A stretch of 64,000 nucleotides of DNA from Bacteroidota bacterium (lineage in GTDB: Bacteria; Bacteroidota; Bacteroidia; Chitinophagales; Chitinophagaceae): assembly GCA_018267545.1 (NCBI GenBank), contig JAFDYG010000466.1, forward strand, positions 1 to 64,000, in the 5' to 3' direction. This document shows, in pieces, positions 22,369 to 38,004 of the stretch; positions within the stretch are counted from its first letter, which is position 1; every line of letters starts with the position of its first letter. A model generated the notes under the pieces. It made no database searches, was not told the DNA's origin, and saw nothing but the letters and a program-made list of their open reading frames with translations. Made by a program: the position numbers and the translations under genes.

Positions 22369-23361
22369 ATGAAGAAAAAAAAGCATGCAAATTCGCTCAC
22401 GCCCTGGCAAAGGCTGGTGAGTCTATTGCATCATGAACGTACTTCCATCAATTACATTTTTGTCTACGCGATACTAATAGGCATCATCGGCCTTACCCTG
22501 CCATTGGGCACTACGGCCGTATATAACCTGCTTTCAAATGGAGCCATTTACAGCTCTACCTATATACTGATAGCCGTCGTGCTGATAGGCGTAGTCGTCG
22601 CAGGCGCGCTTTTGATCGGACAGCTGACATTGGTGGAGTTTCTCGAGCAGAAGATTTTTACCACGGCCTCGATGGATTTTGCGTTTCGGCTGCCGCGGAT
22701 TAAACCACAAGAATTACATGGTGAACGTCCGGCAGAGCTGGTCAACCGCTTTTTCGATATCCTTACTATCCAAAAGGGACTGACCAAATTGCTGGTCGAT
22801 ATCGTCGCGGCCTGCGTCCAGATCTTTTTTAGCGCCATATTGCTTTCTTTCTACCATCCCGTATTTATGGCGGTTGGCCTTTTTGCGCTGCTAGCCATAT
22901 CCCTGGTGCTATTTCTTTATTATAGAAGGGGCGTGGAAACGAGCATGGATGAATCGAGCCATAAATATGAACTGGTGGCTCATTTTGAAGAAGTGGCCGA
23001 GGACCTCGACAATTACCGCGGCAACCCGGAAATGATGGAAAAAGTGGTCAGGAAGGCCGACGAAATTACATCCCGATACCTGATCTCCCGCAACGAGCAC
23101 TTTTCTATCCTGAAAAAGTTTTTTATCAGCGCCGTTGCGATGCGGACTATCCTGATGGGCGGCCTGCTGCTGCTGGGAGCATTTTTCGTAGTAGAACGGG
23201 AAATGACCTTCGGACAATTTGTGGCCGCGGAGGTGATCGTCGTACAAATAAGCTACGCGGTCGAAAAACTGATGACAAATCTCAATACCGTATTTGACAT
23301 GGTTACCAGCAGCGAAAAGCTGGCCGTCGTAACCGATCTTGAAATAGAGGAGGGAAAATAA
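22369..23361 (+). CDS. ABC exporter membrane domain lacking a nucleotide-binding domain
   Basis: This 330-residue protein is a type I ABC exporter transmembrane domain (ABC_membrane fold) with six hydrophobic segments between about residues 25 and 290 and the helical cytoplasmic extensions between them (LVEFLEQKIFTTASMDFAFRLP, HFEEVAEDLDNYRGNPEMMEKV). It ends right after the last helix (VTDLEIEEGK) with a normal stop. No Walker A, signature or Walker B motif exists here, and the next bases begin the HlyD gene, so the domain was not lost to a frameshift. It would need an ATPase from elsewhere or may work without one. HlyD and TolC genes follow directly, which makes this a tripartite export operon. 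Confidence 0.75.
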   Translation: MKKKKHANSLTPWQRLVSLLHHERTSINYIFVYAILIGIIGLTLPLGTTAVYNLLSNGAIYSSTYILIAVVLIGVVVAGALLIGQLTLVEFLEQKIFTTASMDFAFRLPRIKPQELHGERPAELVNRFFDILTIQKGLTKLLVDIVAACVQIFFSAILLSFYHPVFMAVGLFALLAISLVLFLYYRRGVETSMDESSHKYELVAHFEEVAEDLDNYRGNPEMMEKVVRKADEITSRYLISRNEHFSILKKFFISAVAMRTILMGGLLLLGAFFVVEREMTFGQFVAAEVIVVQISYAVEKLMTNLNTVFDMVTSSEKLAVVTDLEIEEGK

Positions 23362-23362
23362 A

Positions 23363-24730
23363 ATGACTAGATTATTAAATAGAAACCAATACAACAGACA
23401 CCTGGATGCCCTGGCTGTACAGTCACAATCGGAGCTTGTAAGGGTGAAAGGTTCGTTCAAGCTGGGCCGCATCATGGCCTTTTGCCTTATCGTATTCGTT
23501 ATTCTCTTGTTTCTGCCCTGGCGCCAGACCATCCCCGCCAGAGGAACGGTAACGGCTTTGACGCCGGAAGACCGGCCCCAAACCGTCCAAAATCAAATCG
23601 GAGGCCGTATCGAACACTGGGCGGTACGCGAGGGACAGGAAGTAAAAAAAGGGGACACGATACTGGTCATCTCGGAAACCAGTCAGTCCTACTTCGACCC
23701 CGAGCTGCCTTTGCGCCTGGACGAACAGCTGGAGGCCAAAAAAGGCAGCGAATCCGCAGCGGTCCAAAAGATGGAAGCAACCAACGCGCAGATAGAGGCG
23801 CTTAACAGCGGGCTGCGGTATCAGCTCTCGTCCGCAGAAAACAAAGTAAGACAGTCGGAGAACTACGTCAGCATCGACAGCGCAGACCTCGTAGCCGTTC
23901 AGAATTTTTATGAGACTTCAAAAGCGCGTTTAGTGCGGTATGAGTCGGGCTACCAGAATGGGTTGTTCTCTCTCACGGACATCGAGACGCGCCGGCTGAA
24001 GCTGCAGGAAGATAACGCTAAGGTCGTCAGCCAGCAGAATAAACTCAGCAATTCCAAGCAGGCGCTGTTGAACGCCCGGATTGAATTGGACAACATTCGG
24101 GCAAAGTACCAGGAATCGCTGGCCAAAGCCCAGTCGGACCTGAGCTCGGCCGTTTCAAGCCGCGCAGGCGTACGCGCCGAGATCGCCAAATTGCGGAACG
24201 ATATTTCGAATATTGCTATACGGCGCGGTCTTTATATCGTACGTGCACCCCAGGATGGATTTGTCGTAAAAACGCTCAAGGCCGGTATAGGAGAAAATAT
24301 TAAAGAAGGGGAGTCCATCGCGACTCTTCAACCTCTGCATCCACAAGTAGCCGCTGAGCTTTATGTCAATGCCATGGACGTCCCGCTAATCCTGGATACC
24401 AGCGACGTCCGTTTACAATTCGAAGGATGGCCCTCCATTCAATTTTCGGGCTGGCCGTCGGTGGCCGTAGGCACTTTCGCGGGAAAGGTATGGGCCATCG
24501 ACAAGGTGAGCAGCAGCGGCGGTAAATATCGCTTGCTGATTAAGCCATCGGTTCCGGTGCCAGTAAATGACGAGCCATGGCCGATACAGCTCCGGCCAGG
24601 CTCTGGTGTTTATGGCCGGGTCATCCTTCGCTCGGTACCCGTGTGGTACGAAATCTGGCGGCAGCTAAACGGCTTCCCGCCAAGCCTGGAAAAAGAACCT
24701 TCTGACGCAAATTCAAATGGTAAGAAATGA
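23363..24730 (+). CDS. HlyD-family membrane fusion protein
   Basis: This 455-residue periplasmic adaptor has one N-terminal membrane helix (about 34-52), a biotinyl-lipoyl-like strand pair (GGRIEHWAVREGQEVKKGDTI and IRRGLYIVRAPQDGFVVKTL), long coiled coils between (about 120-300) and a beta-barrel region. It links an inner membrane transporter to the outer membrane TolC. The ATG comes one base after the TAA of the exporter gene, and its TGA overlaps the TolC start by four bases, so all three proteins are coupled in expression. Confidence 0.88.
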   Translation: MTRLLNRNQYNRHLDALAVQSQSELVRVKGSFKLGRIMAFCLIVFVILLFLPWRQTIPARGTVTALTPEDRPQTVQNQIGGRIEHWAVREGQEVKKGDTILVISETSQSYFDPELPLRLDEQLEAKKGSESAAVQKMEATNAQIEALNSGLRYQLSSAENKVRQSENYVSIDSADLVAVQNFYETSKARLVRYESGYQNGLFSLTDIETRRLKLQEDNAKVVSQQNKLSNSKQALLNARIELDNIRAKYQESLAKAQSDLSSAVSSRAGVRAEIAKLRNDISNIAIRRGLYIVRAPQDGFVVKTLKAGIGENIKEGESIATLQPLHPQVAAELYVNAMDVPLILDTSDVRLQFEGWPSIQFSGWPSVAVGTFAGKVWAIDKVSSSGGKYRLLIKPSVPVPVNDEPWPIQLRPGSGVYGRVILRSVPVWYEIWRQLNGFPPSLEKEPSDANSNGKK

Positions 24731-26157
24731 CGAAACTGAAAAGATATGTTTTCGCCGGTCTGTTGATGCTGGTTACGGCTAGTGGATTCGCACAACCAGC
24801 CGACACCGGCAGGACCTTCACCTTAAACGACCTCGAAGAAATCGTCTTTGGTCATCACCCTATCGTAAAACAAGCGGCATTATTAAGCGATATAGCCAAA
24901 GCCGAGGTTTTGCAATCGTTGGGTTATTTTGATCCCACGCTAAAAGCAGGCTTCGAGCGCAAGTTATTCGGCAACACCGAGTATTACAATAACTGGAGCA
25001 GCGAGCTCAAAGTCCCGTTATACGTCGCCGGCGCCGACCTAAAGGTTGGATACGACAGGAATGTCGGCGTTTACACCGCGCCCGAAAAACAAACGGGCTC
25101 AGCCGGCCTCGCAGCCGTAGGTCTGAGCATCCCCCTAGCCCAGGGTATGCTGATCGATGCCCGACGGAGCACCCTCTGGCAAGCCAGGGTCATGGTAAAC
25201 TACGCCGAAGCCGATAAGGTAAAGCAGATCAACAGCGTCTGGTACACCGCTGTTAAAGACTACTGGGCCTGGTATTACGCCTATAAAGAATACCGGCTGA
25301 TAAAGGAAGGCGTCGATCTGGCCATGAAGCGTTTCCAAGCCGTAAGCAGACAGACCCTGATGGGCGACAAGCCTCCTATCGACTCTGTAGAGGCGGGCAT
25401 CACCGTACAGGACCGGCAGATCCAGCTGGCAAAAAGCAACATAGAAGCCCAAAACGCCATGCTTGTGCTTTCTAATCACCTTTGGAACGAACAGGGGGCT
25501 CCCCTGGAACTGCCGATGGACGCCGTTCCACAACAGGTGGACCAAAACATGACTCTCCCGGACCGAAGTCTACTCGATACCCTACTGACTCTCGCCGGTA
25601 ACCAGCATCCCGAACTGGTCAAGCTTCGGGCAAAAGGCGACCAGCTCGACATCGAACGGCGCTACCGCCGGGAAATGCTCAAGCCCAAGATCAATCTCTC
25701 CGGGTCGCTTGTCTCCGCCCGCACCGACTTCGGGTATGTGCCCGGCTACTACGACTTTAACTGGAGCAATTACAAGGTGGGGTTCGATTTTGCCTTCCCT
25801 CTTTTTCTGCGTTCCGAACGGGGTAAGTTAAAAGCGATACGAATCAAACAGGAACAGGTACACTATGACCTGCTCCAGTCGGGCCGCGAGATCAACAATG
25901 CGGTTATGGCATCGTATAATAGCCTGGAGGCTTACCAATCGCAATTGTCCGTACAGATTCAAAGCATCAATAATCAACAGCTGCTGCTCACCGGCGAGCT
26001 GCAGAAATTCGATCTTGGAGAAAGCACCCTCTTTTTGATCAATAGCCGGGAAAGCAAGCTGATAGACATGAAGGTGAAGCGGGAGAGTTTGATAGCCGGC
26101 TATCAGAAAAGTCTTGCGGAATTATACTATAAGGCAGGAACTAGACAACGACGGTAA
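24727..26157 (+). CDS. TolC-family outer membrane efflux protein
   Basis: This 476-residue protein has a signal peptide (ending near residue 22, GFAQP) and the two-repeat helical/beta pattern of outer membrane efflux proteins: FGHHPIVKQAALLSDIAKAEVLQSLGYFDP early, and HPELVKLRAKGDQLDIERRYRREMLKP before the second repeat. TolC trimers form the outer membrane duct of type I secretion and RND pumps. It completes the export chain with the NBD-less exporter and HlyD, and could also serve the lanthipeptide exporter encoded from the other strand 2-4 kb away, which has no TolC of its own. Confidence 0.88.
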   Translation: MTKLKRYVFAGLLMLVTASGFAQPADTGRTFTLNDLEEIVFGHHPIVKQAALLSDIAKAEVLQSLGYFDPTLKAGFERKLFGNTEYYNNWSSELKVPLYVAGADLKVGYDRNVGVYTAPEKQTGSAGLAAVGLSIPLAQGMLIDARRSTLWQARVMVNYAEADKVKQINSVWYTAVKDYWAWYYAYKEYRLIKEGVDLAMKRFQAVSRQTLMGDKPPIDSVEAGITVQDRQIQLAKSNIEAQNAMLVLSNHLWNEQGAPLELPMDAVPQQVDQNMTLPDRSLLDTLLTLAGNQHPELVKLRAKGDQLDIERRYRREMLKPKINLSGSLVSARTDFGYVPGYYDFNWSNYKVGFDFAFPLFLRSERGKLKAIRIKQEQVHYDLLQSGREINNAVMASYNSLEAYQSQLSVQIQSINNQQLLLTGELQKFDLGESTLFLINSRESKLIDMKVKRESLIAGYQKSLAELYYKAGTRQRR

Positions 26158-26838: not shown

Positions 26839-28179
26839 CTAACGCCGATCATTCATGCTCCCGATGATACGCTCGAAAAGCCGTTGCAGGATACTTTTGT
26901 TCTCTGTTAATATTTCCCCCAGGGCCTCCACTTCAGGCTGCGGCGGGATGGTCTTCCCGGTATTAGTGGTCAGGTCGTTGTCCAGCTTAATCTCCAGCGA
27001 GAAATTTCCATCCATCGCTACTACCGACCGGCCGGCAACGTGACCATTGAGAACGCCATATTCCTCAAAAGGATAGGCCGGCAACTTCATGATCACGCGC
27101 TGCCCGACTTTTATCTTTCCCGTATTGTCCAGGCCAACGGTGCCGTGGACAATGTATGCCTGAATCGGGGGCGTGACCATCATAATGCCTTCGCCGGCGG
27201 TGACGTATTGGTTTTCTTTCCAGAACTTGAAGAAGGTGACTTTCCCATTGGTGGGACTGCTGATCACGTAGGCTTGCTCCCATTGTGCGTATTGGCCTTT
27301 GAGACGGCGGACGGCATCTTTTACTTTTTCTTGGAGGTTATTTTCTTCGCTTTGTTTTTGCAGCGTCAGCTGGGCAATATCTTTTTGATAGCCGATCTGC
27401 TGGAGGTTGTTTTGGATGATGGAGCTTTTGTTATTTCCCATGCTCATCTGCTGGTCGAGCATCTTCTTTTTGGATTCTTCGTATTCCAGTGGAGAGATGA
27501 CCCTATCCGTAACCAGCGAGGAGTCGGCGGTAAATCGATTGTGCTGGAGGCTTAGCTGCTCCTGAAGCATTTTTTCTTTAGTGCTTAGCTCTTTTTGCAA
27601 CTGCCCGTTGTAGGTGACCTGTTTGGCAAGATGGCCGATCGTAGCCTGGTAGGTATTGTGGCGGATGAAAAATAAATACGCCTGGATGGCGACGCATAGA
27701 TCGGTATATCCTCCCTGCAGGTCGCCCAGCTGCAGCGCTCCGGGAATTTTGACATTGAGAAGGCTGGCGGCCAGGTCGAGGCTCGTATCCAATTGCGTAA
27801 CCAGGGTGTTTATTTTTTGGATATCCCCATAGACGGCGGAATTGGCGAGGACGCATAGGGTCTCGCCGGACGTAACCTGTTCGTCGTTAGCGACAAAAAT
27901 CTGTTGGATAGGCAGGCTGCTCCGCGCTACCAGTTTTACCGGCGGATTCCCGGACGAAATGACGATCTTCGACGCGATGACGTCGGGGAATTTAAAGAAC
28001 CAGGCCGCGATCAGGATACCCAAAAGGATAATGCCGGTTAGCGAAATGCCGCGTCGGATGAGCCAGGAAGGCATCCGCCCGATGATTTCCGTGACTTCTT
28101 CGCTCCGGTGATCGGCTAAGCCCGCAGGCTCCGGGTAACGATCATGCACCCCATTGCTGCTAAATATTTGTTCTGGCAT
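26839..28179 (-). CDS. HlyD-family adaptor of the lanthipeptide exporter
   Basis: This 446-residue membrane fusion protein has one membrane helix (about 46-66), a lipoyl-type pair (RSSLPIQQIFVANDEQVTSGETL and VISSPTNGKVTFFKFWKENQYVTAGEG) and coiled coils between (about 120-310). It is the last gene of the lanthipeptide operon and begins six bases after the stop of the C39-peptidase ABC exporter gene, so it most likely couples that exporter to an outer membrane channel such as the TolC encoded at 24727-26157. It differs clearly in sequence from the other HlyD at 23363-24730. Confidence 0.88.
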   Translation of the reverse strand: MPEQIFSSNGVHDRYPEPAGLADHRSEEVTEIIGRMPSWLIRRGISLTGIILLGILIAAWFFKFPDVIASKIVISSGNPPVKLVARSSLPIQQIFVANDEQVTSGETLCVLANSAVYGDIQKINTLVTQLDTSLDLAASLLNVKIPGALQLGDLQGGYTDLCVAIQAYLFFIRHNTYQATIGHLAKQVTYNGQLQKELSTKEKMLQEQLSLQHNRFTADSSLVTDRVISPLEYEESKKKMLDQQMSMGNNKSSIIQNNLQQIGYQKDIAQLTLQKQSEENNLQEKVKDAVRRLKGQYAQWEQAYVISSPTNGKVTFFKFWKENQYVTAGEGIMMVTPPIQAYIVHGTVGLDNTGKIKVGQRVIMKLPAYPFEEYGVLNGHVAGRSVVAMDGNFSLEIKLDNDLTTNTGKTIPPQPEVEALGEILTENKSILQRLFERIIGSMNDRR

Positions 28180-28185
28180 CGTATT

Positions 28186-30366
28186 TTATTGACCAAGTTC
28201 CAACTGGTTTTTCACCAGCTCATAATATTTACCCTTGCACGCCGCGAGCTCCCCATGCGTACCCGTTTCGACGATCTCCCCTTTATCCAGCACGACGATC
28301 TGGTCCGCGTTTTTTACCGTGCTGAGCCGGTGCGCGATGACCACGACGGTTTTGCCTTCAAAGAATCGATCCATATTCTTCATAATGACCCGCTCGTTGT
28401 TGGCGTCGAGGGCGCTCGTGGCTTCGTCGAAGAAAAGATACTCCGGGTCTTTATAAACGGCTCGCGCGATTTGGATCCGTTGCCGCTGACCCGCGCTGAT
28501 GCCGTTGCCGGAGTTGCCGATCTTGGTGCGATAGCCGAGCGGCAGCCCCTCTATAAATTCCCGGATGTTTGCTACTTCGCAGGCGTATAGAAGGCGGACG
28601 GTGTCTGTGGACGCAGCGCTGACTGTGATATTGCCGGCAATGGTGTCGGAAAAGATAAACCCGTCCTGCATGACGCAGCCGACCTGGCTTCGCCACCACT
28701 TAGGGGAAAACTGCTCCAGGTCCCGGGAATCGACATAGATCTTCCCCGCCGTTGGCTCGTAGAATTTGAGCAGGAGCTTGAGCAGGGTGGTTTTTCCGCT
28801 TCCGCTGGTCCCGACGATCGCCGTTACCTTTCCTTTTGGTATGTGGAGGTCGAGATTTTTGAGTATGTGCGGAGACCCCGGACCGCCATAGGTAAAGGAA
28901 ACGTCTTTCAAGTGGATGTCGCCGCTTTGCTGAACGGGAGACTCAGAAGCGACCTCTTCCTCCTCCCTAGTATGGATCTCTCCCAACCTGTCCAGGCTAA
29001 TCCTCGCGTCCTGCGCCGCCTGGACAAAACCCAACAGCTGATCCAACGGACCATTCATCTGCCCGATGATATAACTAACCGACAACAGCATCCCCAGTGT
29101 CATATTCCCACTCATCACCTCCCTGGCGGTTATATAAGCGACCAAAATATTCTTAAGCTGCGTAAAGACACTAAAGCCCAATTGCTGATACTGCCCCAAC
29201 GCCAGGCTCTTGATATTGATCTTATAAAGCCTTGCCTGAACCCTCTCCCAACCCCAGCGCTTGGCCGTTTCGCAATTGTTCAGCTTGATCTCCTGCATCC
29301 CGGTGATCAGCTCGAAAAGGACGTTCTCATTGTCGCTCATCCGCTGAAACCGCTTATAGTCCAGCTCTTTTCTCTTCTTCAAAAAAAAGAAAATCCACGC
29401 AACGGCCATAATGCTAAACACCACAAAGACCGTCAGCAGCTTCCAGCTGTAAACTCCCAATACAACCGAAAATACCAGCAGGTTGACAAAGGAAAACAAT
29501 GTTGACAACGCCGTGCCGGTGAGAAAATTCTGTATCCGGCTGTGGTCCCCAATCCGCTGCGTAATATCCCCGATCATTTTCGTGTCGAAGAACCGGATCG
29601 GCAGCTTCATCAATTTGATCAAAAAATCGGAGATGATGCTGATATTAATCCGGCTATTGATATGGAGCAGAATCCAGCTTCGGATGATTTCGATCGCCGT
29701 ACTACCCGCAAATAACAGCAGCTGCGAAAACAGGATGAGGTTGACGAAGCTCGGGTCCCGATGATTGATGCCATAGTCTACCAGCCCTTGAGTCAGGAAA
29801 GGCGCGATAAGAGAAAGTATACTCGCGATGAGGACGCTCAACACCAACTGGATGATATATTTTCGATAGGGCCTAAGATACCGGAACAGGAATCCAAAAC
29901 CTGCCGGCTTGCTTTCCTTGCCGTTCTGTTCGTAAAACGAATCCGTGGGCTCCAGCATCAGGACGATCCCCTCGTTTCGGTGATCGGCCCAACATTGGAG
30001 AAAGGTCGTCCGGTCCACCTTGACGAGACCATGTGCGGGGTCGGCGATGAGAATCTTGTCGTTTTTACTACGGTTATAGTTTTGCGGAGGTAGAACGACA
30101 AAATGATTCTGGTTCCAATACAAGATACAAGGCAGCGTCGCCTCTTCGTCCAGCGCGGCAAAGGACAGCCGGGCGGAAAAGGTCTTGAACCCGATATTTT
30201 CTGCGGCTTCGCTGATGCCCATCAGACTCACCCCTTCCCGGGTGATATAGGAATGCTCCCGCAGGTATTCCAGGGAAACGCTTCGCCCGTAATATTTGGC
30301 GATCATCCGCACACAGGTCGGACCGCAGTCCATGGCGTCCAATTGTCTATAATACGGAAACGGCAT
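28186..30366 (-). CDS. lanT: C39 peptidase-containing ABC exporter (LanT / PCAT)
   Basis: This 726-residue protein carries three units. An N-terminal C39 peptidase (1-130) has Cys14 in DAMDCGPTCVRM, His88 in WNQNHFVVL and Asp109 in IADP. An exporter membrane domain follows (about 160-450), then a complete ATPase (about 480-720) with VGTSGSGKTT, SAGQRQRIQIARA and LFFDEATSALD, and the H loop VVIAHRLSTVK. Such proteins cut leaders after a double glycine while exporting the modified peptide. The precursor at 34664-34906 has AGG at the expected place. The start overlaps the LanB stop by 20 bases. This is the only nucleotide-binding domain in the window. Confidence 0.93.
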   Translation of the reverse strand: MPFPYYRQLDAMDCGPTCVRMIAKYYGRSVSLEYLREHSYITREGVSLMGISEAAENIGFKTFSARLSFAALDEEATLPCILYWNQNHFVVLPPQNYNRSKNDKILIADPAHGLVKVDRTTFLQCWADHRNEGIVLMLEPTDSFYEQNGKESKPAGFGFLFRYLRPYRKYIIQLVLSVLIASILSLIAPFLTQGLVDYGINHRDPSFVNLILFSQLLLFAGSTAIEIIRSWILLHINSRINISIISDFLIKLMKLPIRFFDTKMIGDITQRIGDHSRIQNFLTGTALSTLFSFVNLLVFSVVLGVYSWKLLTVFVVFSIMAVAWIFFFLKKRKELDYKRFQRMSDNENVLFELITGMQEIKLNNCETAKRWGWERVQARLYKINIKSLALGQYQQLGFSVFTQLKNILVAYITAREVMSGNMTLGMLLSVSYIIGQMNGPLDQLLGFVQAAQDARISLDRLGEIHTREEEEVASESPVQQSGDIHLKDVSFTYGGPGSPHILKNLDLHIPKGKVTAIVGTSGSGKTTLLKLLLKFYEPTAGKIYVDSRDLEQFSPKWWRSQVGCVMQDGFIFSDTIAGNITVSAASTDTVRLLYACEVANIREFIEGLPLGYRTKIGNSGNGISAGQRQRIQIARAVYKDPEYLFFDEATSALDANNERVIMKNMDRFFEGKTVVVIAHRLSTVKNADQIVVLDKGEIVETGTHGELAACKGKYYELVKNQLELGQ

Positions 30367-33300
30367 CTTGCTTTGCTTTTTTGGCTATTGCCATACTGGA
30401 GACGTAATATTTTTCAAGGAAATGATAAACGACCAGCTCGTACTTCCGCTGCTGACCGGGGAACAGCCGGTTGATGAACATATGAATGTAATGGTTTAGG
30501 AAGCCTGGGTTTAGCTCCCGGACCAGGTCTTTATTCATCTCCGAGCGGATATTCAATACCTCGATCGCCTCGTCGATCTCATTGGCGACGTCTTTTTCCG
30601 CATTCATATGATCGGCGATAAATCGCTGGTGTTTTCTATAACGTTCGTTCAGCGACTTTTGGAGTGCGGGGCTGCCGCCAAATTCTTTAAAGAAGGTAGC
30701 CTGCTGCGCTTTTAGATAGGTCAGCGTTTGCTCCGGGGACAAATCAAAGTCAACCAGCAGCGCGGCAATCCCGCGCATGGCAAGAATCAGCCGGTATCGT
30801 CCGTCGCTCACGCCGTCCAGTAACGATAAGACCCGAAGCACGGCCAGGCTGTCGTTATAAAATAAGGTCTCAGTTGGGTCCATGAGCCCGGGCGTATAGC
30901 GTTCCAGCTCGCGCTTGTAGGTGTCGAGCATCACCCTATCGATAGCTCCGTTATCGACCCAGGGTTGAAGGGCTTGCGCCAGCTTTTGTGCAATCGCCCA
31001 CTGCCGGTCCTTGTCCTGGTTGAAGAAACGGATGCGCAGGTGCCCGCCCGCTTCGTCCCGGAAACGAAGAAAGAAGAAGCGTTCGAACAGTCCCTGCTCC
31101 AAACTTTCTTCCACCAACGGTGAAATGACGGATGAAAGGAGGTGCTCGATGGTCTTCGTCCCTGCATACACTTTGAAATAGAGCCACTCGCTATATGGTA
31201 AGAAGACACGCTGAACCGTGGTCTCGGCCGGGGCAGCAAGGTCCATAGAAACACCGGCTGCTTCGCGATGGACTGGGATGATTAGCTCATTCGTATATGG
31301 CGCCCCATCAACATCCCTTACAACAGAATTTTCCTCCGTAAAAAGAAATTCTTCGAGGCTTATATTCTTGTACCGTCTGATATAGTGAAGGAAAAGCTCC
31401 ATTCCCTCGGGCCGGTCGAAGTCGATCAGCAGCTCGTTGTCTCCTTCCTTGTAAACCACGCGCGGGGGTAGCTTAAACCGCTCCCTGACCCAGGCTGAAG
31501 TGGGCGCATCGACCAGGTCCTCTTCCCTGATCTTCCATACAGCTTTATGGATGATCAGGTTTTTGTAGCTGACGCGGGGCAGATGATTCAAGACGGAGAG
31601 ATTCCCCCAGTCCCATACATTCGACATGGCCAGTCCCTGGAATTGCAGGTCGCAAAGGAATTTGTACACCGGCAGGCTCCTGCTCGAAAAATTATGCGCC
31701 GTCGTCAGCCGTGGCAGCACGCGCTTATTCAGCTTCCTGCTTCGAAGCACTACTTCGTTATTGCGGATGGAAACAAATAGGTCATCGATAGGAAGCTGAT
31801 GGTCTGCATCGGCGCCTGAAAATCCTACGTATGGTATTTCATATTCCCTCAGCACGGGCCGCAACAGAATATTGCCCAACCGCGGTTGCGGCAGGTGTGC
31901 TATTTCCGCATAGACGACCTCGGGATGCTCCCGCTCTTCCAACTTCAAAATGTCTTTGACGAAGTCACCAATACCGGCGTCGCCCTGCGCAAAACGGCCC
32001 AGCAGGTTGCCCCCTGAGGAGCCCATGAATCCGGCCAGATCGAAGGTAAAATGTTCCGCATCCAGCTTTCCATCTTCCCCCAGCAGGCTGCCCATCAGAC
32101 TTATATTTCCGGGTAGCCGAAGCGGCAAAACATGCTTTTCGAATTTGGCGAGCTCCTCTTCGCGGATGACGATTCCGTCCCCTCCGGCTAGCAGCCAGTC
32201 GTTGTATTTCTCCAGCGTAAACTGCTGGATATAGTCGAAGTCGCCTCCTCCCTGTCCCTGTCCCACGGCCACCGGCAGGTCGTCGATCAATTCTCCTCCT
32301 CCCGCCAGCTCGTCTCGTAACCCGGCATAGCCAACGCCCAGGTCTGCGTCCAGGGCCAGACAAAGCGGTACCTCCGCGTGTTCATATCGGGTGAAGAACC
32401 TTGTCTTGAAATCCTGGAGGTCCGGGTTGGTGATGGGCCGGGACAAGGCTTTGAGCTCGCTGGCTTGCTTTAGGAGGACAGCAATGAGGTGTTTGTTGAT
32501 ATGTCCCTCACCCATGGCAAGGAACAGGTCAGCCTGTAGCACGTTTTTGGGAACGGCTATATCCAGCCCGAGCTTTTGAAGCTTCTCTTCTACTTTTATA
32601 TAAAACGCAACCCCCGCTTCCGGCGAAGCGAGAAGGTCCCGTATTTCAACCAGCTGGTCGACCAAACCGGTTAGGTCTGGTATGCCCTGCAATCCGCCGA
32701 TTAATTGGTCCAGGGGATTGGCGCCAGTGACGGAGGGCTCCAGCCCCGCGATCAGGAGCTGGGATTCGCACAGATCGCCGATAAAAGCTTCGGCTTCTTC
32801 CCGGTCGACTTGCTCCTCTGCCATCAGCGTATCTACCAGTTCCTGGATTGGGGTCCCGCGCGATGCCCGGGCAAGAATATTGGAGAGGTAGGGTGACTTA
32901 CTGATGGAAGTAAGGCGGTAGTGCCGGGCGTGGTCGGCTCCGGAAGCCTCCGCATAGCGATATCTATCGGGTGTTTCGTAAATACTATTGTTCGTATAAA
33001 AGGTCAATCGCTTCCGTACCGCCGGCATCCGCACCAGCGCCTGAACGATCGCCGAAAGATAATTCATGTCGAGCCGCAGACTGCGTCTGTGTCGCTCATT
33101 TGGCTGTAGCTCCAGCCGGGAAGCCCCTTCTGTAATTGGAACAAGCGCCGAACCCGCAAACGTACCGAAAGGCGTACAGCGGCTGCTGCTCCGCAGCCAA
33201 TACTTCGCGAAGCTCAGCTCCAGCTTCTTCCGGTCCTTCTCCGATAACGAATCTTTTCGGGACAGCTCTTTATAAAACTCTGGAGAAGAAAGGTAAATCC

Positions 33301-33400
33301 CCTCCTGAAATACAGTATTGCCATCGGCGGGAAACGTGTAGGCGTCCCGCAGATTTTGTAACGGCGTTCTCAGCTGAACGTATGAATAGGGTTGGAACAT
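30347..33400 (-). CDS. lanB: Class I lantibiotic dehydratase, full length (LanB)
   Basis: The ATG at 33400 gives 1017 residues, with the sequence MFQPYSYVQLRTPLQNL at the start. The open frame runs on to 33718 inside lanC, but that extension is not a normal LanB start. The N-terminal about 680 residues are the glutamylation domain (LRSSSRCTPFGTFAGSAL, LRLDMNYLSAIV), and about 720-1000 are the SpaB_C elimination domain (YSEWLYFKVYAGTKTIEHLL, FFLRFRDEAGGHLRIRFF). LanB uses glutamyl-tRNA to dehydrate Ser and Thr of the precursor. Both domains are in one polypeptide, unlike split LanB enzymes of pinensin-type clusters. The gene starts four bases after lanC ends. Confidence 0.92.
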   Translation of the reverse strand: MFQPYSYVQLRTPLQNLRDAYTFPADGNTVFQEGIYLSSPEFYKELSRKDSLSEKDRKKLELSFAKYWLRSSSRCTPFGTFAGSALVPITEGASRLELQPNERHRRSLRLDMNYLSAIVQALVRMPAVRKRLTFYTNNSIYETPDRYRYAEASGADHARHYRLTSISKSPYLSNILARASRGTPIQELVDTLMAEEQVDREEAEAFIGDLCESQLLIAGLEPSVTGANPLDQLIGGLQGIPDLTGLVDQLVEIRDLLASPEAGVAFYIKVEEKLQKLGLDIAVPKNVLQADLFLAMGEGHINKHLIAVLLKQASELKALSRPITNPDLQDFKTRFFTRYEHAEVPLCLALDADLGVGYAGLRDELAGGGELIDDLPVAVGQGQGGGDFDYIQQFTLEKYNDWLLAGGDGIVIREEELAKFEKHVLPLRLPGNISLMGSLLGEDGKLDAEHFTFDLAGFMGSSGGNLLGRFAQGDAGIGDFVKDILKLEEREHPEVVYAEIAHLPQPRLGNILLRPVLREYEIPYVGFSGADADHQLPIDDLFVSIRNNEVVLRSRKLNKRVLPRLTTAHNFSSRSLPVYKFLCDLQFQGLAMSNVWDWGNLSVLNHLPRVSYKNLIIHKAVWKIREEDLVDAPTSAWVRERFKLPPRVVYKEGDNELLIDFDRPEGMELFLHYIRRYKNISLEEFLFTEENSVVRDVDGAPYTNELIIPVHREAAGVSMDLAAPAETTVQRVFLPYSEWLYFKVYAGTKTIEHLLSSVISPLVEESLEQGLFERFFFLRFRDEAGGHLRIRFFNQDKDRQWAIAQKLAQALQPWVDNGAIDRVMLDTYKRELERYTPGLMDPTETLFYNDSLAVLRVLSLLDGVSDGRYRLILAMRGIAALLVDFDLSPEQTLTYLKAQQATFFKEFGGSPALQKSLNERYRKHQRFIADHMNAEKDVANEIDEAIEVLNIRSEMNKDLVRELNPGFLNHYIHMFINRLFPGQQRKYELVVYHFLEKYYVSSMAIAKKAKQDAVSVL

Positions 33401-33404
33401 TGGG

Positions 33405-34601
33405 TTAAACGTTGGTTTGAAAAATGATATCCCAGTCGGGAAGCACACCCGCGTCGCAGGATAGAAACACCAGCCCGATTCCGGTGATTCCCTCCAAAAG
33501 GCCATAGCTGGGAACGTCGGAATACGACCCGGTTGATTCGTCGTATTTTCTATGCGCATAACCGCCAGGGTAAGCATCAGGCCGGTAATATTTTTCCTGC
33601 ATGAAGGACAGCCACCGGTCCGCCGCATCCTTGAACCGGATGTCGCGTGTCGACCGAAAAAGCCTGTAGTATTGATGGACGAGACCAACGGCGCCGTGAC
33701 AGAAAGAAGCGTCACCACAGCCGGCGGCTTCGAATGGGATCTGCGTCGTCTTCAAAGCGATTTCGGTCCCCAGCAGCACCCAGTCTCCGCGCGTCAATGC
33801 CCTGCCGCAATGAATCAGCGCGATGGCCACGCCGAGATCGCCATAGCACCAGCCATTCCTCGAGGGCAGCGGTGTTGGCTCCGGCTTTAATTGAATAGAG
33901 GCGGGGAAGCCGTAGTGTTCGCCGTCTATCTGGTAATGGTCGAGCAAAAAAGTACAGCAGGAGGTAACCAGGTCTCCGATGACGTTCCTGCGGATGCCCA
34001 AGGTGTAAACCTCTGCGAGAAAGCTAAGCAGGCCGGGCATGCCGTGCGCCATCCCGAAATTATAGTTGTCCACGCTGTAGTGCCGGTACCCCGGAGTGAC
34101 CCACACCTTGCCGCTGTCTTCATCGACGGCAAGAGCGCTGAGCTGGTCGACGATTCTTTCAAGGTATTTACTCTCGCCCGTTTCTTTGTATCGTTCGAGG
34201 AAGTAAATCCCCAGGCCGACCAGTCCGTGCAGCGGGTCCCAGTTGCCGACGGAAAAATCCTGCTCGGCCCCATTCATGATCGACTCATCCAAAACGTCAA
34301 GACCGATATCCTCTGAGCCGTCCAACAAACCGATATTGCGGAGATGCTGGAAGACAAAGCCGATACCGGCGACACCGCTCGACAGATAATGCGGCAATTG
34401 CTGATGAGCCAGCGCATCGCTTAGCTTTTCGAGGTATTCCAGGGTAATCTCTTCATAGGGGCTTTCGGGATAGGCGATCGCCAGATAGGCGAAAAACAGT
34501 GCCACACCGGCGTCTCCGCTCAATAGTCCGCTTACCTTGACCGCGGTATCCCTGTCCTCGTAAACCGAATGGGCGATCGCCCTGATCTTTTCGTGTAGCA
34601 T
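33405..34601 (-). CDS. lanC: Lanthionine cyclase (LanC)
   Basis: The ATG at 34601 gives 398 residues; the longer frame to 34724 runs back across the terminator and the precursor gene and is not credible. Repeated helical hairpins with GxxG-type turns (GIGFVFQHL, HGLVGLGIYFLE, HGMPGLLSFLAE, EGITGIGLVFL) form an alpha/alpha toroid. The zinc ligands are visible as Cys in NGWCYGDLGVAI and Cys-His in FCHGAVGLVH. LanC adds Cys thiols to dehydrated residues to make (methyl)lanthionine rings. It lies 60 bases downstream of the precursor, after the terminator hairpin, and four bases ahead of lanB. Confidence 0.92.
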   Translation of the reverse strand: MLHEKIRAIAHSVYEDRDTAVKVSGLLSGDAGVALFFAYLAIAYPESPYEEITLEYLEKLSDALAHQQLPHYLSSGVAGIGFVFQHLRNIGLLDGSEDIGLDVLDESIMNGAEQDFSVGNWDPLHGLVGLGIYFLERYKETGESKYLERIVDQLSALAVDEDSGKVWVTPGYRHYSVDNYNFGMAHGMPGLLSFLAEVYTLGIRRNVIGDLVTSCCTFLLDHYQIDGEHYGFPASIQLKPEPTPLPSRNGWCYGDLGVAIALIHCGRALTRGDWVLLGTEIALKTTQIPFEAAGCGDASFCHGAVGLVHQYYRLFRSTRDIRFKDAADRWLSFMQEKYYRPDAYPGGYAHRKYDESTGSYSDVPSYGLLEGITGIGLVFLSCDAGVLPDWDIIFQTNV

Positions 34602-34613
34602 AGCATTAAATTG

Positions 34614-34651
34614 AAAAAAGAGAATTGCCCGCCAGGTGGGCAATTCTCTTT
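34614..34651 (-). terminator. Intrinsic terminator/attenuator between lanA and lanC
   Basis: AGAGAATTGCCC (34619-34630) and GGGCAATTCTCT (34638-34649) form a perfect 12-bp stem with a seven-base loop, extendable by two A-U pairs. On the minus strand it is followed by a run of T (A-tract at 34614-34619). It is placed 13 bases after the precursor stop and 13 bases before the lanC ATG, so partial read-through would give more precursor than enzyme, as known for other lanthipeptide operons. Confidence 0.85.
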
Positions 34652-34663
34652 GTAGAGCATCGA

Positions 34664-34906
34664 CTAGAACGGGTTGCAATAAGACGTCTTGCCGGGTATG
34701 CAATCGGCTTTCGTCCGGATACATCCGCAGTCGCTATTCTGTTGTGTTACGTTCGGGTCTGTCGTTGGGGGCGGGTTCGTGCAATAGGTATTCGTATGCT
34801 GGTTGTAACCGCCCGCCAGCTTGGCCTGCTGATCAGGTGTGAGATTAGCGATCGTTTCCTTGCTGAGGACCAGTTTCTTCTTGAGGTCCAACTGCTTCTT
34901 TTTCAT
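34664..34906 (-). CDS. lanA: Class I lanthipeptide precursor (LanA)
   Basis: ATG 34906 gives an 80-residue precursor (an upstream in-frame GTG/ATG context adds only two residues). Residues 1-33 are a Bacteroidota-type leader: LDLKKKLVLSKETIANL, acidic/Gln-rich TPDQQAKL and the double-glycine site AGG at 31-33. The 47-residue core starts with YNQHTNTYC and has five Cys (core positions 9, 27, 29, 36, 44) and ten Ser/Thr, in a Pro-rich NPPPTTDP stretch and a Cys-dense C-terminal half (DCGC, ADC, SYC). Five Cys allow up to five (methyl)lanthionine rings or some disulfides. It is the first gene of lanA-lanC-lanB-lanT-HlyD. Confidence 0.92.
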   Translation of the reverse strand: MKKKQLDLKKKLVLSKETIANLTPDQQAKLAGGYNQHTNTYCTNPPPTTDPNVTQQNSDCGCIRTKADCIPGKTSYCNPF

Positions 34907-35031
34907 AACCAATAATTAAAGTGCCTACTCTGTAATAGGGTTTTCGGCTACCCCCTATAAAAATGTTGAATAAACCGGACGTAAAAGCCGGTACATTTGA
35001 ATGGTAGATTTTAGCAGGCTGGGAATTGCGA

Positions 35032-35130: not shown

Positions 35131-35139
35131 ATCAGGTTG

Positions 35140-37260
35140 ATGGAACAAACTTCAGGCAAAAACACTAGCGCTTATACACCATCTATTAGGTGGCGGAAAA
35201 TTTCGGATAGATGGCTGCTTTTCCGTTTTTTTTGTCTGTCGATTACTTTCTTTGCTACTGGTAAATGTGTAGCGCAAGACACCGCCAGCATTCGGCAGAT
35301 GAACGAAATTTCCTACGAGTACCGGCTTAAACAGGTTGATAGCGGCATAGCTTATGGACGGCGTGCGCTGGCGTTGGCGGAAAGAGTCCGCTGGAAACCC
35401 GGCGTCGCCCGATCCTACAATTGTATCGGGATCAATTATTATATGATGGCGGACGCGGATAGCTCCCTAAAATACCATCAGCAGGCGCTCGACATGTACC
35501 GCGGGCTCGGTGACAGTGCCGGGGTCGGATGGAGCCTATGCTATTTAGGCTCCGTATATGTCAACGTCCTCAATGACTACCCAAAAGCGCTGAGCAGCCT
35601 GGAACCGGCCCTGCAATTGTTATCCAAAGCAAACGACCGGAAAGGAATGGCCAGGACCCTCGATATCCTCGGCGTTGCCTACCTGGACCTGGGACAAGCC
35701 GCCAAAGCGCTCGAACACTTTCAAAAGTCGGAAAAGCTCAGCGAGTCGCTGGGGGACCTGGCCGCAACGGGCAGCAGCGACCTGCATATAGGAAACCTAT
35801 ACACGCAGATGGGACAATATCCGCAGGCCCTCGACTATTCGAAAAAGGCGCTGACCCTTTTTAAAAGGGTGGGCAGCAAAGTGGGGATTTCGAGCGCGCT
35901 TGGGTCTTTGGGGGAAATTTCCTGCGTCACACGAAAGTATGATGAAGGTATCGACTATTACCGGCAGGCGGCTGTCGTAGACAAAGAAATCGGGCAGAAA
36001 TTGGGTGTGGCCCAGGACATCGCCAACATCGGGGCTGCTTACCTGCTCCTGAAAAAATACGCCGAAGCGCTCAGTGCCTTCCAGGAGTCCTTTGCCATCG
36101 AGAAAGCGCTTGGATATAAGTCGGGGATGTCGAACTGTCTCGCGAATATGGCGAGCATTTATGCCAATGCACCGGACTCGTTTTTGAACAGACTGGGGAA
36201 AAGGCGCGAGATCGCCGAGACGACCGCACAGGAAGCTTTAAGGCTCGCCAATGAAATCCACACCATCTCCGACCAGAAACTGGCGTTGGAAACGCTGACC
36301 TCCATTTATGCAAAAGAAAAGAATTTCGAAAACGCCTATCGATACCAGCGGGATTTGGTCGCCCTAAACGATAGCATGGTTGGCGACGAGAAGCAAAAGG
36401 AAATAGCAAAACGAGAGGTTCAGTACCAGTTTGAAAAGAAAGAAGACTCGTTACGGGCTGTGCAGGAGAAACGGGACGCCCTCGCTTCCGCGGAGATCAA
36501 GCGGCAGAAGCTCATTCGGAACTACACCGTTAGCATCGTCCTGATCGCCGGCGCTTTTTCCTTCCTGATGATCGTATTTAATAGCCGAAGAAAGAAGCTG
36601 ATCTCCGACAAGCGCGTATCGGAGTTGGAGATGAACGCCTTGCATTTACAGATAAACCCCCATTTTATCTTCAACTGCATGCAGTCTATCAATAAATATA
36701 TGATAGACAATGAGGGAAAGCTGGCTTCGCAGTACCTGATCCGGTTCTCGAATTTAATGCGGCTTACGCTGGAAAATTCGCGTGAGAAGGAAGTCTCTCT
36801 TTCGCGGGACCTGTCCGCCCTCGAGCTCTATATGCAGCTGGAAGCTTTGCGGTTTAAAAATAAGTTTCAGTACGTCATCGAAGTGGACCCCGAAATCGAT
36901 GGGGAGACTACCTTGATACCGCCGATGCTTTTACAGCCATTTGTCGAAAACTCGATTATCCATGGCATCAGCAATAGAGAGGGCGGCATTATAAAGATCA
37001 TTGTCAGCAAAGAAGAAAATATGATCCGTTGTGTGGTAGAGGACAACGGGGAAGGCCGGAAATCCTCGGTCGAACATAAATTGTCCCCCGACGTAAAACG
37101 AGAGTCCCTTGGTGTGAAGATCACCCAGGAACGCCTCGAGATTATCGGTAAAATTAAAAAAGTAGCAACGGCTATGTTTATTACCGACCTGGCGGACGCA
37201 AACAATGGCTTAAGCGGTGTACGGATTGAATTGTTATTGCCCTTCGAAAACGAGTTTTAA
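35140..37260 (+). CDS. TPR-domain sensor histidine kinase (LytS-type)
   Basis: The ATG at 35140 gives 706 residues; the TTG three bases earlier is less likely. After an N-terminal signal/anchor (about 24-45, ending CVAQ), six or more TPR motifs fill residues 55-420 (for example SLKYHQQALDMYRGLGD and ALDYSKKALTLFKRVGS). A coiled coil and a membrane helix (about 468-488) follow, then His_kinase with LQINPHFIFNCMQSIN and the HATPase region (LLQPFVENSIIHGI, GVKITQERLEIIG). TPRs outside the cytoplasmic membrane read a protein or peptide signal in this Bacteroidota kinase class. It is divergent from lanA and followed three bases later by its LytTR regulator, so control of the lanthipeptide operon is possible. 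Confidence 0.88.
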   Translation: MEQTSGKNTSAYTPSIRWRKISDRWLLFRFFCLSITFFATGKCVAQDTASIRQMNEISYEYRLKQVDSGIAYGRRALALAERVRWKPGVARSYNCIGINYYMMADADSSLKYHQQALDMYRGLGDSAGVGWSLCYLGSVYVNVLNDYPKALSSLEPALQLLSKANDRKGMARTLDILGVAYLDLGQAAKALEHFQKSEKLSESLGDLAATGSSDLHIGNLYTQMGQYPQALDYSKKALTLFKRVGSKVGISSALGSLGEISCVTRKYDEGIDYYRQAAVVDKEIGQKLGVAQDIANIGAAYLLLKKYAEALSAFQESFAIEKALGYKSGMSNCLANMASIYANAPDSFLNRLGKRREIAETTAQEALRLANEIHTISDQKLALETLTSIYAKEKNFENAYRYQRDLVALNDSMVGDEKQKEIAKREVQYQFEKKEDSLRAVQEKRDALASAEIKRQKLIRNYTVSIVLIAGAFSFLMIVFNSRRKKLISDKRVSELEMNALHLQINPHFIFNCMQSINKYMIDNEGKLASQYLIRFSNLMRLTLENSREKEVSLSRDLSALELYMQLEALRFKNKFQYVIEVDPEIDGETTLIPPMLLQPFVENSIIHGISNREGGIIKIIVSKEENMIRCVVEDNGEGRKSSVEHKLSPDVKRESLGVKITQERLEIIGKIKKVATAMFITDLADANNGLSGVRIELLLPFENEF

Positions 37261-37263
37261 AAA

Positions 37264-38004
37264 ATGATCAGAGCGGTGCTTTTGGACGACGAGCAGCATA
37301 GCCGGCAGGTATTGTGCGAAATGCTGACCGAACATTTTAAGAATATAGAAGTGCTGGCGGTATGCGAAAACATAGCAGAAGCTGTTACCGCCATTACCCA
37401 ACATCATCCGGACCTTGTCATTACCGACATCGAATTGGACAGTAGCTCCGTGTTCGATATGCTGCAGGGGCTGCCGGGCATTGACTTCGAAGTCATTTTC
37501 ACCACGGCACACGAAAAATACGCGTTACAAGCGATAAAGTTTTCCGCGCTCGATTACCTGCTCAAACCCTTTAGCCTGGAAGATTTGTCCCGCGCCATCG
37601 ATCAGTGTCAGACCAAATTGAACGAAAGACAATCCGCGCGTCAATTCGAAGTACTCTTCCACAACCTCAAAAAGGATACGAAAAAGATTGTCGTCCCAAC
37701 CTCGAATGGTTTGCAGGTCGTCTCTCTAAAAGATATCATTCGCTGCCAGGCCGAAGGCAACTATACCTTGTTTTTCTTTGCCCTGGACAAGAAAATGCTG
37801 GTCACTAAAACCCTTAAAGAATTCGAAGACCTATTAAACGGCTATGACTTCATCCGGGTCCACAACTCTCACCTGATCAATTTGAATCATATCGTAAAAT
37901 ATACAAAGGGAGAGGGTGGGGTAGTAGCCATGTCCGATGGTTCCGAAGTAGATGTCTCGCGCAGAAAGAAGGAAGAGTTTTTGCAGCGCCTCGCAAAACT
38001 TTGA
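37264..38004 (+). CDS. LytTR-family response regulator
   Basis: This 246-residue regulator has a receiver with DDE at 8-10, Asp55 in VITDIELD, TTAHEKYALQAIKFSALDYLLKPF, then a LytTR domain (about 140-240) with IIRCQAEGNYTLFFF and FIRVHNSHLINLNHIVKY. It starts three bases after the TPR kinase stop, so the two form one operon and probably one phosphorelay. One good half-site (ACCGTTGGG at 35053-35061) lies in the intergenic region before lanA and the kinase gene, but no properly spaced partner was seen. Confidence 0.9.
   Translation: MIRAVLLDDEQHSRQVLCEMLTEHFKNIEVLAVCENIAEAVTAITQHHPDLVITDIELDSSSVFDMLQGLPGIDFEVIFTTAHEKYALQAIKFSALDYLLKPFSLEDLSRAIDQCQTKLNERQSARQFEVLFHNLKKDTKKIVVPTSNGLQVVSLKDIIRCQAEGNYTLFFFALDKKMLVTKTLKEFEDLLNGYDFIRVHNSHLINLNHIVKYTKGEGGVVAMSDGSEVDVSRRKKEEFLQRLAKL

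Follow-up and report, generated by a model that had tools for sequence, protein, structure and literature searches.

A complete class I lanthipeptide operon of ordinary make, with an apparently new core peptide, in a Chitinophagaceae genome

What does a minus-strand cluster of five genes in the genome of a Bacteroidota bacterium (family Chitinophagaceae; GenBank assembly GCA_018267545.1) make, and which of its features, if any, are new? The cluster lies on contig JAFDYG010000466.1, of which positions 1 to 64,000 were analysed (hereafter the window), and the original prediction had described it as a complete class I lanthipeptide operon with an unfamiliar five-Cys core. The analysis finds a real, complete and ordinary operon of the L1a class I type already known from Bacteroidota, and only the peptide sequence appears to be new.

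The operon occupies positions 26839-34906 of the window on the minus strand and consists of five unbroken genes, which follow one another as lanA, lanC, lanB, C39-ABC exporter and hlyD (Table 1); all the predicted parts, namely precursor, LanC with zinc ligands, two-domain LanB, C39 exporter and HlyD protein, are present and intact. Two start codons are our own choice: that of lanC is the first in-frame ATG past the end of lanA, at 34601 (the mechanical open reading frame (ORF) reaches 34724 and overlaps lanA), and that of lanB is the ATG just past the lanC stop, at 33400 (the mechanical GTG start at 33718 falls within lanC). With these starts, 62 bases separate lanA from lanC and four bases lanC from lanB, lanB and the exporter gene overlap by 20 bases, and six bases lie between the exporter gene and hlyD, a close packing that is as expected of one operon.

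Table 1. Features of the operon and its surroundings, and DUF805b elements before L1a precursors at other loci
Feature	Sequence	Position	Strand	Details
lanA precursor	window	34664..34906	-	80 aa, ATG; 33-aa leader ending GG + 47-aa core; NF038153.1 48.2 bits
lanC cyclase	window	33405..34601	-	398 aa; PF05147 148.2 bits; aligned to NisC 2g02 and 8byk
lanB dehydratase, full length, N- and C-terminal domains	window	30347..33400	-	1017 aa; PF04738 476 bits, PF14028 204.6 bits; NisB alignments
C39-peptidase ABC exporter (PCAT type)	window	28186..30366	-	726 aa; PF03412, PF00664, PF00005
HlyD-type membrane-fusion protein	window	26839..28179	-	446 aa; PF13437 32.1 bits (cut-off 22.2)
Terminator-like hairpin between lanA and lanC	window	34617..34651	-	14-pair stem then T run; -21.4 kcal/mol
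DUF805b cis-regulatory element (Rfam RF02914)	window	34922..34957	-	46.2 bits, gathering score 35.6
TPR/His_kinase sensor; LytTR response regulator	window	35137-37260; 37264-38004	+	divergent; Pfam
TolC-type outer-membrane protein	window	24727..26157	+	neighbouring + strand genes; PF02321 106.4 bits
DUF805b before L1a precursor	L059	1438-1474
DUF805b before L1a precursor	L062	1443-1477
DUF805b before L1a precursor	L067	1612-1643	-
DUF805b before L1a precursor	L077	1449-1484
DUF805b before L1a precursor	L034	8722-8752

The class assignment is carried first by the precursor. LanA matches the whole 32-position profile of the class I lanthipeptide leader lant_leader_L1a (NCBIfam NF038153.1, a model that spans the leader only) with an E-value of 8.6e-13 and well over its cut-off of 22 bits. 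The stretch LVLSKETIANL within the leader is an exact LxLxKx5L. This motif has been reported for various class I precursors of Bacteroidetes; the leaders of many end in Gly-Gly (GG), and a C39 peptidase is often encoded in the cluster (Walker et al. 2020, PMC7268733). The leader of LanA likewise ends in LAGG, and the C39 peptidase domain of the same cluster scores 111.7 bits (PF03412). These domain and motif tests uphold both the class I lanthipeptide assignment of the operon and its GG leader, and translation confirms the claimed core of 47 residues with Cys at positions 9, 27, 29, 36 and 44; eight Thr and two Ser give it ten Ser/Thr.

The modification enzymes fit the precursor. Seven Pfam families were found over their cut-offs (LANC_like, Lant_dehydr_N, Lant_dehydr_C, Peptidase_C39, ABC_membrane, ABC_tran and HlyD_3), with E-values of 2.9e-43 for LANC_like, 2.1e-142 for Lant_dehydr_N and 4e-60 for Lant_dehydr_C, LanC having been scanned as a 439-aa ORF and LanB with 50 extra N-terminal residues. 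The glutamylation and elimination domains (PF04738 and PF14028) both lie within the single LanB chain. Among solved structures, those closest to it in sequence are the thiopeptide-type bacteriocin biosynthesis protein 9g04, the lantibiotic dehydratase 5ehk and NisB. LanB is identical to NisB at aligned R83, R87, T89, R786, E823, R826 and H961, positions that matter in NisB. LanC, for which 8byk and NisC are the closest solved structures by sequence, keeps in its WCYG and CHG motifs the Cys and Cys-His at positions aligned with the zinc site of NisC, and its GMAHG and NWD stretches also align; the zinc ligands predicted for LanC are thus borne out, in a separate LanC protein. Kinship with NisB and NisC would also suit a nisin-like or mersacidin-like lantibiotic that binds lipid II. 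We regard that as very unlikely, as a pattern search of the core found neither of the lipid II motifs defined in the literature, SxxxCTP(G/S)C of nisin and TxTxEC of mersacidin (PMC7268733).

The exporter combines a C39 peptidase domain (Peptidase_C39, 3e-32) with an ABC transporter (ABC_tran, 1.9e-30). Its top-scoring structures are P-glycoproteins, whose scores come from the ABC part, and it is matched over nearly its whole length by the bacteriocin transporter 4ry2 and by ComA. The HlyD protein matches HlyD_3 at 2.1e-07 and reaches 107.4 bits against TIGR01843, under the cut-off of that model (208.65).

Relatives of the core were sought in two ways. A scan of genome contigs with the window precursor found two loci, one in a Marinifilum metagenome-assembled genome (47% identity, query residues 4-49) and one in Hymenobacter coccineus (46%, residues 2-42); the matches cover mainly the leader, and both loci were rejected as close core relatives because the cores differ. 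The core was also aligned locally with the 102 precursor-like ORFs that remain when the window gene (L001) is removed from the 103 in the fetched loci; these were picked by a regular expression for leader shape, and some may not be real genes. No core relative emerged among the 102 in this alignment, in which the matches were no better than those of shuffled cores: the best scored 52, and 59 of 500 shuffled cores scored at least as high (95th percentile of the null, 55), as did 71 of 500 when the Cys positions were held fixed. Cys counts in these ORFs run from 0 to 12, with nine having five Cys, and ten share with the window core a CxC plus two further spaced Cys. The core sequence is therefore new as far as tested, as had been claimed, the comparison being with the 102 ORFs and the genome contigs, yet it is of ordinary make for its family.

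Between lanA and lanC lies a terminator-like hairpin which is exceptionally stable for its composition (z -5.1; 0 of 200 shuffles as stable). A scan of the region for terminator patterns found 16 sites against 10.0 expected, and the lanA-lanC site has the most pairs; a scan of the same region for sigma-70 promoters found one match against 6.7 expected, and it does not lie before lanA. Its probable effect is that lanA is expressed in excess.

Read from the genes, their domains and motifs and their order, the operon very probably directs the synthesis and export of a single class I lanthipeptide by the following scheme. The hairpin would limit read-through into the enzyme genes and so leave LanA in excess. 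LanB would glutamylate Ser and Thr of the core using glutamyl-tRNA and then eliminate the glutamate, and LanC would close up to five (methyl)lanthionine rings by joining Cys to the dehydrated residues, with four of the ring Cys lying in the C-terminal half; that this half is ring-dense, as predicted earlier, follows reasonably from the position of four of the five Cys at 27-44. The calculated monoisotopic neutral mass of the core is 5207.26 when unmodified, 5117.20 after five dehydrations and 5027.15 after ten. The C39 domain of the exporter would cut after Gly-Gly, and the peptide would leave through the exporter and the HlyD protein and then through an outer-membrane channel, for which the TolC protein of the neighbouring genes is a candidate. 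Once secreted, the product would probably act as an antagonist or a signal. Several points weigh against this interpretation. No product of the operon is known, and a gene for an outer-membrane channel is missing from the operon itself. None of its five genes is an immunity gene, although no targeted search for immunity was made. The comparison with NisB covers a subset of residues, to which the likewise important D299 and R14 do not belong. Finally, as the searches gave no core relative, the Cys pattern offers no conservation from which selection could be argued.

L1a precursors were matched in five of 58 genomes in a search of relatives and in 21 of 395 in a search of the class, the window's own genome being counted in both. 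When the other twenty L1a genomes were searched for LanB, 17 had a match, with 27 matches in total; 18 of these have an L1a match no more than 10 kb away, and an open frame of more than 950 aa was found at 16 of the 18 (and at 24 of the 27 overall). The count took in all 27 PF04738 matches and 58 of the 78 L1a matches, omitting three of genome G000 and 17 of the 19 of genome G109, which has no LanB match. A search for LanM (PF13575) matched no genome, controls included, and is thus uninformative. The original prediction had set the two-domain LanB of the window apart from the split LanB of pinensin clusters, a contrast that does not hold up as a distinguishing feature and carries no weight, because a full-length LanB is the rule in L1a-linked clusters; full-length as opposed to split LanB was accordingly rejected as a mark of novelty, and it does not set a Bacteroidota cluster apart. 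That the operon is itself a pinensin-type antifungal lanthipeptide cluster would agree with the shared phylum and class I chemistry, and with pinensins having been, up to 2020, the sole lanthipeptides isolated from this phylum (PMC7268733). This reading is nevertheless extremely improbable, given that the pinensin LanB is split (Mohr 2015, via PMC7268733 and PMC9248904) and that of the window is one chain.

Other lanthipeptide loci occur in the same genome. A second class I cluster, on contig C485 (L036, 2290-11006), has two Cys-rich L1a precursors of 73 and 112 aa, LanC and a full-length LanB, plus divergent genes that resemble, by eye, a C39-type exporter and an HlyD protein. A third LanB (1034-aa ORF) adjoins a LytTR regulator on contig C382 (L128, 5998-11617), which has no L1a match, and a weaker, partial LANC_like match (47.5 bits) lies in a 632-aa open frame away from LanB genes on contig C438 (L003, 1501-2160).

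Related genomes can carry many more precursors than enzymes. G033 (loci L040 and L041), of the same family as the window genome, has 46 L1a matches, two LanB matches (one split) and four LanC matches; 44 of the 46 L1a matches have no LanB within 10 kb on their contig, 41 have neither a LanB nor a LanC within 10 kb, and some sit among genes that by eye resemble housekeeping genes. G033 looks like a class I counterpart of the prochlorosins, with many scattered substrates and few enzymes. Two incomplete genomes show a similar excess: G399 (62% complete) has eight L1a matches and one LanB match, and G109 (72%) has at least 19 L1a matches (19 candidates scored). The G033 numbers, together with the two further precursors in the window's own genome, raise the idea that the window LanB and LanC also modify precursors encoded elsewhere, the linked core being one of several substrates. 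We think this improbable: the two other precursors adjoin their own LanC and LanB, and no further L1a match was found in the genome at E-values up to 1.

Upstream of lanA, a DUF805b element ends 15 nt 5' of the ATG and is the sole Rfam match above gathering score in the window. The same genome has at least three DUF805b matches, at least two of them above gathering score (150 of 3097 first-look candidates scored); one below it precedes a 37-aa ORF on C382. DNA linked to L1a or to the window precursor was then scanned as 60 stretches (201,505 bases, some overlapping; 23 from G033 and two from the window's own genome). In three sets of 20, the element was found in 0, 3 and 2 stretches, six matches that amount to five distinct elements in four other genomes, one element present in both L059 and L077 being counted once. 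Each of the five is followed by an L1a-type precursor gene whose ATG is 21 to 35 nt away; there was no DUF805b elsewhere in the 60 stretches and none in any from G033. Across the class, DUF805b occurs in 243 of 395 genomes (161 above the cut-off; up to 17 candidates scored per genome), and at 33 loci it precedes very different genes, often for secreted or GG-leader proteins as judged by eye from the first residues (L108 ended before its gene was readable). The idea of a lanthipeptide-only element was rejected on these grounds: DUF805b is not lanthipeptide-specific, but its position before L1a genes recurs, which offers a possible handle on the expression of some of these precursors. Folded alone, a 66-nt stretch around the window copy is no more stable than shuffled sequence (z 0.18; 117 of 200 shuffles as stable) and its best fold is not the hairpin, which is evidence that this copy does not form a strong RNA structure. 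No title among the papers found to mention DUF805 concerns this RNA element or lanthipeptides. We tentatively raise the possibility, which we consider doubtful, that DUF805b, 15 to 35 nt before start codons, governs, at the level of translation or transcription, several class I precursors that are unrelated to one another as well as further exported products in Bacteroidota, the window lanthipeptide being one output of this set; if so, the element would mark when these secreted and GG-leader peptides are made.

Two neighbouring regions may serve the operon. An ABC membrane-domain protein without a detected ATPase domain, an HlyD protein and the TolC protein are encoded in a row at 22369-26157 on the plus strand, convergent with the operon, and the TolC protein is a possible outer-membrane partner of the exporter. 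The divergent sensor kinase and LytTR regulator upstream of lanA are possible regulators, and weak evidence for a dedicated one, because the genome has 40 LytTR matches.

Bacteroidota lanthipeptides form a large group of which little has been characterised, and it gains here one intact cluster and one five-Cys core without a match. The operon shares leader motif, GG end, C39 peptidase, LanB and LanC with the Bacteroidetes class I set of Walker et al. (PMC7268733), which was described from genome mining. With the class I lanthipeptides PedA15 of Pedobacter lusitanus (Bothwell 2021, via PMC12328550) it shares phylum and class; PedA15.2 is cleaved by the GG protease LahT150 (PMC12328550). The class I lanthipeptides of Chryseobacterium OV715 and Runella limosa share with it the phylum and the LanA, LanB and LanC set, and their gene sets yielded sevenfold dehydrated peptides in Escherichia coli, given tRNA-Glu and glutamyl-tRNA synthetase of the producer type, with glutathione adducts also formed (PMC9993889). 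These peptides have three thioether rings each (PMC9993889), whereas the core of the window has five Cys.

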